A stretch of DNA of 64,000 nucleotides from Candidatus Fermentibacteraceae bacterium (GTDB lineage Bacteria > Fermentibacterota > Fermentibacteria > Fermentibacterales > JCC-6), in assembly GCA_016744855.1 (NCBI GenBank), contig JADGDO010000011.1, positions 62,001 to 126,000 on the forward strand, written 5' to 3'. Position 1 is the first letter of the stretch; each line of letters opens with the position of its first letter. The translations under genes and the position numbers were made by a program. Positions 15,426 to 18,673 of this stretch are shown one piece after another. The notes under the pieces are model-generated. The model saw nothing but the letters and a program-made list of their open reading frames with translations, was not told the origin of the DNA and made no database searches.

Positions 15426-16586
15426 CTATTTAAGCAACCTTGAAGCTAATTCCTCGGCTTTGTCGGTTTTTTCCCAACTGAAACTACCATCTTCTCCAGG
15501 AATTCTACCGAAGTGACCGAAGGAGGCTGTTTTCCTGAAAATCGGCTTCCTGAGCCCGAGTGAAGTAATTATTTCATATGGCTTAAGAGGGAAAATATCA
15601 ATTACTGCTTTTTCAATGTCTGAAACATTTCCAACTTTTTCTGTTCCGAATGTGTCGACCCTTACACTAACCGGTTCGGGCTGGCCTATTGCGTATGCGA
15701 GCTGTATTTCACATCTGTCGGCAACGCCAGAGGCAACAATATTTTTAGCAATGTATCTTGCCATGTATGCAGCACTTCTATCAACTTTTGTACTGTCTTT
15801 ACCGCTGAAAGCACCGCCTCCATGTCTACCCATTCCACCATAAGTGTCTACAATAATTTTTCTTCCGGTAAGACCAGTGTCTCCATCCGGACCTCCAATA
15901 AAAAAATCACCGGCAGGGTTATAGGTAAACTTTCCACTCCATTCGAGGTAGGGAACAAAATCATCGAGGAGTGGGGTAATTACCTTCTGCTTGATCTCTT
16001 CTTTCATTGAGTCGATATCAATCCCTCTGGCGTGGTGCACTGACATAAGAATATCGGTAATTGCGACGGGTTTGCCGTTTTCATACTCAACTGTAACCTG
16101 GCTCTTGGCATCTGGTCTGGCCCATTCAATTTCACCGCTACGTCTCGCGAGACTGAGCCGTTCAAGAAGCCTGTGAGAAAGGTGGATAGGGTAAGGCATA
16201 AGAGCCTTTGTCTCATTACAAGCATAGCCAAACATCATTCCCTGATCGCCGGCACCCTCATTACTGCTTACACCGTTATTAATATTTGCAGACTGTGAAT
16301 GCAGCTTGATCTCGTAATCGTTCTTTTCGTAATGAAAACCGATCTCAGGAAGAGTGTAGCCTATATCCTTGACTGTATCCGCTGCAATCTGGCTATAATC
16401 AACATCACCTTCTGCAGTTACTTCTCCTGCAAGAAGGCAAAAATTTGTGGTTACAAGCGTCTCGCATGCAACATGAGCATTCGGATCAAGGGCAAGATGG
16501 GCATCAAGTACTGCGTCAGATATCTGATCACAAACTTTATCAGGGTGTCCTTCAGAAACAGATTCGCTGGTAAAAAGCTTTCTCAT
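15426..16586 (-). CDS. metK: S-adenosylmethionine synthetase
   Basis: This 386-residue enzyme makes SAM from methionine and ATP. Family motifs are all present: SVSEGHPDKVCDQISDA at the N-terminus, GAGDQGMMFGYA, and the phosphate loop GGGAFSGKDSTKVDRSAAY. The start is the ATG at 16586, as homologues begin MRKLFTSES; GGAG lies just upstream. The leader carries a SAM-II-like aptamer followed by a terminator hairpin, so transcription is probably repressed by its own product. Downstream genes (EnvC-like, holB, ricT, metG) follow at spacings of 2 to 78 bases and may share this control. Confidence 0.97.
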   Translation of the reverse strand: MRKLFTSESVSEGHPDKVCDQISDAVLDAHLALDPNAHVACETLVTTNFCLLAGEVTAEGDVDYSQIAADTVKDIGYTLPEIGFHYEKNDYEIKLHSQSANINNGVSSNEGAGDQGMMFGYACNETKALMPYPIHLSHRLLERLSLARRSGEIEWARPDAKSQVTVEYENGKPVAITDILMSVHHARGIDIDSMKEEIKQKVITPLLDDFVPYLEWSGKFTYNPAGDFFIGGPDGDTGLTGRKIIVDTYGGMGRHGGGAFSGKDSTKVDRSAAYMARYIAKNIVASGVADRCEIQLAYAIGQPEPVSVRVDTFGTEKVGNVSDIEKAVIDIFPLKPYEIITSLGLRKPIFRKTASFGHFGRIPGEDGSFSWEKTDKAEELASRLLK

Positions 16587-16615
16587 AAAAATCTCCAATT
16601 CCTCTTTGTTGTACA

Positions 16616-16639
16616 GAAAAAGGCCGTCGTCCGACGGCC
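16616..16639 (-). terminator. riboswitch-linked intrinsic terminator before metK
   Basis: On the minus strand a perfect 7-base-pair stem (GGCCGTC, 16639-16633, with GACGGCC, 16628-16622) closes a 4-base loop and runs straight into five T. It lies between the SAM-II-like aptamer and the metK start codon. The upstream copy GCCGTC at 16658-16653 can pair with the same GACGGC arm, so the two structures exclude each other. Confidence 0.85.
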
Positions 16640-16655
16640 CGAGGGTCTGGCTGAC

Positions 16656-16710
16656 GGCTTTTTAGCACTTTTTTTAATGTGGTTGCAATACACCTCAAAT
16701 CAATCCACAC
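16656..16710 (-). ncRNA. SAM-II-type riboswitch aptamer
   Basis: Read on the minus strand, the leader contains in order GTGTGG, TGATTTG, TATTGCAA, CCACAT, TTAAA and GTGCTAAAAAGCC. These are the conserved blocks of the SAM-II class (TGATTT, TTGCA, TTAAA or TAAA, GCTAAA) with matching order and spacing. GTGTGG and CCACAT form a 6-base-pair P1 (one G-U). The GGT in the P1 loop can pair with the 3' GCC as the pseudoknot, where the marine metX example known to me has CC/GG, an apparent covariation. There are two extra bases between P1 and TGATTT compared with the usual form. The position directly ahead of metK supports SAM sensing. SAM-II is best known in alphaproteobacteria. Confidence 0.78.
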
Positions 16711-16718
16711 ACTTCAGT

Positions 16719-16747
16719 AACATAAATGAACAGCTGAAACCGGTAAA
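16719..16747 (-). promoter_or_regulatory. candidate promoter for the metK leader
   Basis: On the minus strand TTTACC (16747-16742) and TATGTT (16724-16719) are separated by 17 bases, each with 4 of 6 consensus matches. The implied start site falls just before P1 of the SAM-II-like aptamer. Confidence 0.4.
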
Positions 16748-16773
16748 GGGTTCCAAATTTTCCTTGCTTTCTG

Positions 16774-18498
16774 CTAATCCTCTACTGTATCACCCACTAC
16801 ATCGTCCTGAGTGAAAGTATCTCCATCTCCAACCGCACCGGAAAGATTTTCAGAAAGAGAATACATATCGTCCGCAAAGCGATTCATTAAAGCATTTGCC
16901 TCCAGAATTGCCTTGTTTCTTTCTCTTTCTTCTTCCTCGCGTTTGTTTCTTTCATCTGCTACAGAGGCCCATTCTTTCTGCCTCAGACCTTCGAGGTAGC
17001 TTTTACCCGAGCTATCCGGGAAGAGATAGTAAAGAAGCTTCTCGTGAGTGGTTTCAGCAAGCGGTAATTCTGTACCGGCGGCAAGAGGAATTCTCCTGTT
17101 AAACCCTGAAGAATCATATTCTTTCTCTTCTCTAAATCCGCACACTTCTTCTCTGTAGTTCTTATCAATAGGGAAAGGTGTTTTGCCGTAGAAACCAGCA
17201 ATAAGATTAAAATACTGTACAGGGTTAACTGACTTACCCATTGCGGTGAAGTAGGCTTTAACCCCAACAATTTGTGACGTAGGGGTAACCAGGGGACACC
17301 ATCCAGCTTTCTTCCTTATCTCTTGAACAGCCTCAAGAGCCTTACCCAGGTATTCTGATTTATTGTCTCTGGCCAGCTGATTAACAAAATTGCTGTACAT
17401 TCCTCCGGGAATCTGAGCGCTCAGCACTTCCAGATTAGGTTTCGGGAACCCGCAGGCCTGCTCCATTTTGTGGGTAATTTCAAGCGCTTTGTCAATATTG
17501 CCCTTTGCCAGATTGTGTAAAATATCCTTAACCATTGGAAGAAGAGTCTCTCTTCCGGGCCAGACGGACTTGTGGATACTCAAATCGAATTCCTGCTCGA
17601 CTTCGGCTATCACAGCATACATCTCGTCATGAATGGGCTTCAGTACTTTGTCTGAAAGATCCAGGCCAGTATCGATACCAAGAACCTCTGCAAACAGTGA
17701 AAGTATTTCAATAGAAGGATGAGAGGAACCGCCGGCAAGAGGGAGGAAAGCAGTATCTATTTTATCTATACCTGCGAGCAATGCAATAACTGCAGAAATA
17801 TGACCATATCCGGGAGTGCAATGGGTGTGAGAAACCACTGGAACCGTCAGTGCTTCTTTCAAAGCTCTGTAGTATTCCCATGCCTCTGCCGGGGTTTTCA
17901 GACCAGCCATGTCTTTGTCACTAACCATGTGAGCACCCATTTTTTCCAGCTCAACGCACTTCTTCACAAAGTGATCAACACCGTAGGGTGATCCGGTGGT
18001 GTAGCATACGGCAGCGTCAAAAGTGCCGCCTGCTTCATTAACTCCTTCAAGAGCTGCTTTGAAATTAGGCGTATAGTTCAGAGCATCGAATATTCTCATC
18101 ACCGAGGCTCCAGCCTTGACAGCTTCCCGGTTGAAATCCTTCACAATATCATTTGGATAAGGATCGTAACCGAACAGATTCTGCCCTCTGGAAAGGGCAC
18201 GCAAACCCGCATTATACGGTTTTGCCATTTCACTCATTTTCTGAAGACGGGTGAAAGGATTCTCTCCAAGGTATCTCATAGCACTGTCAAGAGTCGCTCC
18301 ACCCCATACCTCAAGAAGCTTCACTCCGGTCTCAAGGATATGTGGAAGAATTCTCAATACCTGCTCTGTAGACATCCTTGTAGCAAGAAGAGACTGTTGC
18401 CCATCTCTGAGACTCAAGTCAACAAATTCTACTGAGTCTCTGGGTACAGCTTCCATTCTTGGAGCAGGTTTCCTGTGGAAAAATTTCTTTATTGACAT
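16774..18498 (-). CDS. carboxyltransferase subunit (transcarboxylase 5S / pyruvate carboxylase B type)
   Basis: This 574-residue protein has the TIM-barrel carboxyltransferase domain shared by transcarboxylase 5S, oxaloacetate decarboxylase alpha and pyruvate carboxylase B: FVDLSLRDGQQSLLATRM at the N-terminus, the metal-binding HTHCTPGYGH and the carbamylated-lysine region VSDKDMAGL. It transfers CO2 between biotin and pyruvate/oxaloacetate. The conserved carboxylase domain follows, but there is no biotinyl AMKM domain; the chain instead ends in an acidic tail. A separate biotin carrier is therefore required and none is in the window. Together with methylmalonyl-CoA mutase at 276, a transcarboxylase role in propionate metabolism is attractive. 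An ATG at 18498 preceded by GGAAAGAG is preferred over the adjacent GTG. Confidence 0.85.
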   Translation of the reverse strand: MSIKKFFHRKPAPRMEAVPRDSVEFVDLSLRDGQQSLLATRMSTEQVLRILPHILETGVKLLEVWGGATLDSAMRYLGENPFTRLQKMSEMAKPYNAGLRALSRGQNLFGYDPYPNDIVKDFNREAVKAGASVMRIFDALNYTPNFKAALEGVNEAGGTFDAAVCYTTGSPYGVDHFVKKCVELEKMGAHMVSDKDMAGLKTPAEAWEYYRALKEALTVPVVSHTHCTPGYGHISAVIALLAGIDKIDTAFLPLAGGSSHPSIEILSLFAEVLGIDTGLDLSDKVLKPIHDEMYAVIAEVEQEFDLSIHKSVWPGRETLLPMVKDILHNLAKGNIDKALEITHKMEQACGFPKPNLEVLSAQIPGGMYSNFVNQLARDNKSEYLGKALEAVQEIRKKAGWCPLVTPTSQIVGVKAYFTAMGKSVNPVQYFNLIAGFYGKTPFPIDKNYREEVCGFREEKEYDSSGFNRRIPLAAGTELPLAETTHEKLLYYLFPDSSGKSYLEGLRQKEWASVADERNKREEEERERNKAILEANALMNRFADDMYSLSENLSGAVGDGDTFTQDDVVGDTVED

Positions 18499-18673
18499 CA
18501 CTTCTCTTTCCTCGTTATCAGTGAGGGGTTACTCCAGTTCCTGTAGGCGATTATATTGAAAGTTAGGGGCAGAGTGCCAGATCGACAATTAACAGATACA
18601 CCGTTTCTTAAAACTAATCGGTGTGCTTGCAATTAAATCAACTTAGGGTTATTTACAGCAAAGGGATTTCTTG

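Follow-up and report, generated by a model that had tools for sequence, protein, structure and literature searches.

A SAM-II riboswitch ahead of metK in Candidatus Fermentibacterota, with a predicted role in premature transcription termination

The window, a stretch of 64,000 nucleotides, carries on its minus strand the metK gene, preceded by a leader that holds a SAM-II aptamer and an intrinsic terminator hairpin. In the direction of transcription, the elements are as follows.

16719–16747, minus strand: putative promoter, TTTACC (16747–16742), a 17-nt spacer and TATGTT (16724–16719), position kept in relatives
16652–16714, minus strand: SAM-II aptamer, match to RF01726
16705–16709, minus strand: 5' strand of helix P1, UGUGG, partner of 16682–16678
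16692–16694, minus strand: 5' strand of helix P2b, GGU, in loop L1, partner of GCC at 16658–16656; GGC:GCC, GGU:ACC and GAC:GUC in relatives
16678–16682, minus strand: 3' strand of P1, CCACA, paired with the P1 5' strand
16656–16658, minus strand: 3' strand of P2b, GCC, paired with GGU of L1
16621–16640, minus strand: intrinsic terminator hairpin, GGGCCGUC-GGAC-GACGGCCU, 7–8 bp, −12.9 to −14.6 kcal/mol
16617–16621, minus strand: U-run, read from the sequence
16593–16604, minus strand: Shine-Dalgarno region of metK, GAGGAAUUGGAG, read from the sequence
15426–16586, minus strand: metK, methionine adenosyltransferase (TIGR01034, 516 bits, cut-off 309), ATG at 16586

An earlier note on this DNA had proposed a SAM-II-type riboswitch ahead of metK. 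The blocks it described are present on the minus strand, in the order P1 GTGTGG/CCACAT, GATTTG, TATTGCAA, an A-rich linker and GTGCTAAAAAGCC, and GCCGTC stands at the 3' end of the aptamer (16658–16653). The search with Rfam models that it had suggested agreed with this reading: in a cmscan of the whole window, RF01726 was the sole family above threshold, and matched 16714–16652 from end to end with 44.8 bits (gathering cut-off 44, E = 2.6e-5). The functional leader extends beyond position 16616, where the earlier note had ended it, as far as the metK ribosome-binding site. In the whole genome, RF01726 had one match, located exactly upstream of metK (E = 3.2e-7), and no SAM-I match was found there. 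The alphaproteobacterial SAM-II model, RF00521, gave 29.1 bits on the leader, under its cut-off of 36. SAM-V (RF01826), which has a related H-type pseudoknot fold and the same ligand, was rejected (14.3 bits, cut-off 41, E = 9.6); the aptamer is therefore assigned to SAM-II and not to SAM-V. It shares with RF01726, the long-loop form of Bacteroidetes and marine samples, the P1, GAUUUG, AUUGCAA and GCUAAA blocks and the register of the P2 pseudoknot strands; it differs in a score barely over the cut-off, and in a downstream terminator and alternative pairings that lie outside the model. RF00521, the metA motif of Sinorhizobium meliloti metA and metZ, has the same aptamer plan, with a −10 element a few nucleotides ahead of P1 and, in many members, a terminator after P2 (PMC1273637, PMC2258182, PMC9373788).

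The closest named genome by MetK was Candidatus Sabulitectum sp. (85% identity), of the phylum Candidatus Fermentibacterota in the FCB group. The window genome falls in the Sabulitectum genus group, in which leader L005 (genome G032, same genus) is identical to L032 of the named record. Of the 42 genomes of the class, 35 had an RF01726 match, 19 above and 16 below the cut-off. The other seven have either no metK match or a metK fragment that lacks the 5' end, so that every intact metK 5' end examined, 35 of 35 in nine genera, has the aptamer ahead of it. A nucleotide search of plasmids returned fragments only. A chance resemblance, with no SAM-II RNA at the locus, would accord with a window score just 0.8 bits over the curated cut-off and with the 16 matching genomes under it; it is nevertheless extremely improbable, given a full-length match that is the only one in its genome, lies exactly before metK and recurs in all 35 intact leaders. 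Because the same aptamer precedes metK throughout, it is by sequence more than a chance likeness: the metK leader RNA is a real SAM-II riboswitch, ordinary in its aptamer and predicted to bind SAM.

The earlier note had also suggested looking for covarying P1 and P2 pairs in relatives. In the 35 aligned leaders, the P1 and P2 strands were paired in 95–99% of cells per helix, and some covariation was seen, at the closing pair of P1 (CG/UA/UG), in P2b (GC/GU/AU and UG/CG/UA) and in the terminator stem (U-A to C-G). It is weak because the pairs are nearly invariant; the other four pairs of P1 do not vary at all in the 35 leaders.

A consensus promoter scan of the window called no promoter at the metK leader, and the putative one there is weak. 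Most relatives have a −10-like TATATT, TATAAT or TATCAT a few nucleotides ahead of P1, and those of genus g2 have a clear TTGAC-17-TATNAT ahead of P1. A −10 element just before P1 is the placing that Corbino et al. (2005; PMC1273637) give for SAM-II. The putative −35 of the window is overlapped by a hairpin with a T-rich tail, formed by a strongly conserved stretch, GGAACCCTTTACCGGTTTC (16734–16756, minus strand), which follows the upstream gene and is found at the same place in genus g1; this stretch may act as an upstream terminator, as a promoter element or as an operator. The upstream gene itself (16774–18501, minus strand) resembles pyruvate carboxylase subunit B or the alpha subunit of oxaloacetate decarboxylase, and scored under every curated NCBIfam cut-off.

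The perfect terminator hairpin and T-run that the earlier note had placed directly downstream of the aptamer were found as GGGCCGTC-GGAC-GACGGCC followed by TTTTT (16640–16617, minus strand), between the aptamer and the metK ribosome-binding site. The terminator scan counted 8 pairs and a T-tail; the expectation from shuffles was 0.3. In 33 of the 35 leaders, a hairpin and a U-rich tail lie between the aptamer and the start codon; 32 satisfied the rule of at least six U in ten, and L114, with a shorter run, was added. The two exceptions, L030 (genus g5) and L031 (family f3), have kept the aptamer before metK and have no U-run after the hairpin, and for this reason termination control seems, from their sequences, to have been lost or replaced.

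The earlier note had held that SAM-II usually acts on translation, and that a transcriptional design outside the alphaproteobacteria would be of interest. The premise is mistaken. Terminators follow many SAM-II aptamers (Corbino et al., 2005; PMC1273637), and SAM-II was the only class most often tied to terminators in alpha- and betaproteobacteria, although the mechanism of termination was not then experimentally established (Barrick and Breaker, 2007; PMC2258182). SAM-dependent termination has been predicted for S. meliloti metZ (Scheuer et al., 2022; PMC9373788), and a 2010 study described long-loop SAM-II RNAs from marine samples and Bacteroidetes (PMC2864571); the crystallised metX SAM-II of the Sargasso Sea is an example that fits translational action. 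Because such cases have been reported, neither transcriptional control nor occurrence outside the alphaproteobacteria is new in kind for SAM-II.

In the leaders of the class, the two strands of P2b are each contained in a longer stretch that has another partner at the terminator.

16692–16698, minus strand: UUGAGGU of L1, containing the P2b 5' strand; complementary to CCUC(GGG), partner kept between genera
16638–16644, minus strand: its counterpart, CCUC and the first three nucleotides of the terminator 5' arm; CCUC in 30 of 35 leaders
16653–16658, minus strand: GCCGUC, containing the P2b 3' strand; complementary to GACGGC of the terminator 3' arm

Since GAGGU:CCUC and GCCGUC:GACGGC are both conserved, each P2b strand has a second partner beside the terminator. 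In relatives, G(A/G)GG(U/C) of L1 complements a CCUC placed 0–2 nt ahead of the terminator stem. This CCUC becomes CCCC where L1 reads GGGG (L010, L012), and where L1 reads GGGGCG (L022, L028), the complement CGCCCC sits within the terminator 5' arm. The observed L1:CCUC pairing was reached in 2 of 500 shuffles and its covariation score in none of 500; in slid controls, this score dropped to about a fifth or less. The window pairing ranks among the weaker examples, at −8.5 and with a shuffle p of 0.15. The second pairing, GCCGUC:GACGGC, was present in 91% of cells, slightly above shuffles, and forms a duplex of −11.4 on average when A-run:U-run pairs are included; it reaches 12–14 contiguous pairs in L114 and L025, the leaders where both alternative pairings are strongest.

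Two tests were applied to these pairings in nine genera. In the shuffle test, shuffled linkers or re-drawn hairpins served as the null for each leader element, and the median was taken per genus; in the swap test, a leader's own partners were compared with partners exchanged between the genera. Together they give some protection against effects of base composition and common descent. In the shuffle test, L1:CCUC gave a combined p of 6e-7, and the pairing of the aptamer 3' end with the 3' arm of the terminator one of 3e-4. In the swap test, the median p was 0.004 for L1:CCUC with the terminator 5' arm included (0.012 for the linker alone), 0.021–0.028 for the pairing with the 3' arm, and 0.03 for P2b. 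All these figures are a guide and not strict probabilities, because the leaders tested had themselves suggested L1:CCUC, a number of different stretches had been tried and the genera share history. At the level of sequence, L1:CCUC is the better supported of the two alternative pairings, and support for the pairing with the 3' arm is moderate. The latter is the one that the earlier note had put forward, with GCCGTC and the A-run facing the terminator 3' arm and the U-run. Its complementarity is real and its partners are kept; however, it is poorly timed, because the target strand appears only once the local hairpin can fold, and it is incomplete, L1:CCUC having been missed.

Both alternative pairings are exclusive with P2b, and their exclusivity with the terminator is only partial: L1:CCUC abuts the terminator foot and shares at most about 2–3 nt with it. 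In nested folding, the terminator almost always formed when the aptamer was held. The comparison with and without the aptamer held, which the earlier note had recommended, went against a switch in the window, where the terminator was not lost without SAM (P 0.99, against 1.00 with the aptamer held), L1:CCUC had a probability near 0 and the aptamer 3' end with the terminator 3' arm about 0.01. SAM switching in the window is for this reason inferred. A fold that pairs the P1 5' strand with GUCAGCC, which is the minimum-energy fold of the window leader, was discarded; judged by eye, it occurs in genus g1 only. Among the relatives, the terminator was lost from the ligand-free fold in L003, L023, L113, L116 and L013, and in the first four of these the aptamer 3' end with the terminator 3' arm dominated the SAM-free fold. 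In many leaders of g2, g4 and f2, L1:CCUC dominated the ligand-free fold yet coexisted with the terminator. Because of this coexistence, L1:CCUC does not, in these models, conceal an entire arm as a classical antiterminator would; with so small an overlap, any block would have to act sterically or kinetically, or depend on the second pairing.

Taken together, these data make it probable that this SAM-II riboswitch turns metK off by premature transcription termination at high SAM; such feedback repression fits, since metK makes SAM. With SAM, P2b (GGU:GCC) would close and keep both of its strands in the aptamer, the terminator would fold and transcription would stop ahead of metK; binding is expected to protect L1 and GCUAAAAAGCC. 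Without SAM, P2b would be open. GAGGU of L1 would then pair with CCUC as soon as the latter is transcribed, at what will become the terminator foot, and the released 3' strand, GCCG(UC), could pair with the terminator 3' arm, followed by the A-run with the U-run after the polymerase has passed. L1:CCUC may leave the 3' strand free to attack the 3' arm and may also crowd the foot of the hairpin, and as the two pairings cross, they would make a pseudoknot. Jointly they would oppose the terminator and hold the aptamer open. That this platform operates class-wide, a melted P2b passing its loop strand to CCUC and its 3' strand to the terminator 3' arm in a pseudoknotted antiterminator, unlike the simple aptamer-3'-strand antiterminator of proteobacterial SAM-II, is a tentative proposal that we hold to be somewhat less probable than its failure.

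The simplest competing account dispenses with CCUC, and has the aptamer 3' end (AAAAAGCCGUC) alone compete with the terminator 5' arm for the 3' arm. The strength of this duplex, its swap p value, its 12–14 contiguous pairs in two leaders and its dominance in the SAM-free folds of four all speak for it. It nevertheless leaves the better supported covariation of L1:CCUC unexplained, and its competitor would have to beat an adjacent hairpin with a 4-nt loop that folds first, with no help from A-run:U-run pairs while the U-run stays in the RNA–DNA hybrid; with a predicted probability of about 0.01 for the pairing in the window as well, we regard this account as unlikely. Hardly different in likelihood is a terminator that SAM does not switch, a constitutive attenuator or an upstream terminator, the aptamer working otherwise, for example on RNA stability, as has been proposed in part for S. 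meliloti metA. The terminator kept P > 0.9 without SAM in 20 of the 35 leaders, the window among them, and for the terminator found after the S. meliloti metA SAM-II aptamer, no control by SAM was predicted (Scheuer et al., 2022; PMC9373788). Against this, both P2b strands keep partners at the terminator across genera, and the terminator probability rises on holding the aptamer in many relatives (from 0.22 to 0.94 in L003, from 0.00 to 0.93 in L113).

A translational switch, in which CCUC would be an anti-Shine-Dalgarno strand released or captured by L1, is suggested by the complementarity of CCUC to GAGG in many metK Shine-Dalgarno regions, and the leaders without a U-run, L030 and L031, must act in some other way than by termination, if at all. 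As an anti-Shine-Dalgarno strand, however, CCUC was rejected: its match to the Shine-Dalgarno region does not change in step from genus to genus (swap p 0.97), and the terminator lies between CCUC and the Shine-Dalgarno in 33 of 35 leaders. We consider this explanation very improbable, and retain SAM-dependent termination as the preferred reading.

For comparison, 398 genomes of the Pseudomonas phylum were sampled, 83 of which had SAM-II matches. The terminator finder used there was simple, and doubtful hairpins (e.g. L136, L139, L145) were disregarded. The clear loci (e.g. L118–L124, L126, L127, L129, L132) pair the 3' strand of the aptamer with the 5' arm of the terminator (−13 to −23; −17 to −23 kcal/mol in L118–L127 except L125). 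In contrast, this wiring was not above chance in the Fermentibacterota class, where it gave a combined shuffle p of 0.8 in the nine genera and was rejected as an antiterminator, with swap p values of 0.69–0.88. Some rhizobial-type loci (e.g. L134, L138, L142, L144, L146) could also use a pairing of the loop with the 5' arm; since their P2 strands are palindromic, the contrast with them is one of degree.

The novelty thus seems, on comparison of sequences, to be modest and to lie in the lineage-specific wiring of the expression platform, conserved class-wide, the aptamer itself being ordinary. In the literature searched, no report was found that links Fermentibacter with a riboswitch or Fermentibacterota with metK, which does not prove absence. 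In this uncultured class of the FCB group, a probable SAM-II:metK feedback switch is universal, and the leaders supply 35 natural variants of the expression platform; with the two alternative pairings named base by base, SAM-II termination control becomes directly testable in vitro.

Two further complementarities were noted beyond the terminator. In genus g2 (L004, L006, L008, L010, L012–L019, L027), a conserved UCGGC just past the terminator U-run can pair with GCCGA at the 3' end of the aptamer. L031 lacks a U-run; there, AUCCGACU lies ahead of the ribosome-binding site and is perfectly complementary, over 8 nt, to AGUCGGAU at the 3' end of the aptamer. Pairings of this kind, L031 included, gave a between-genus swap p of 0.09, and may reflect a different control, post-terminator or translational.
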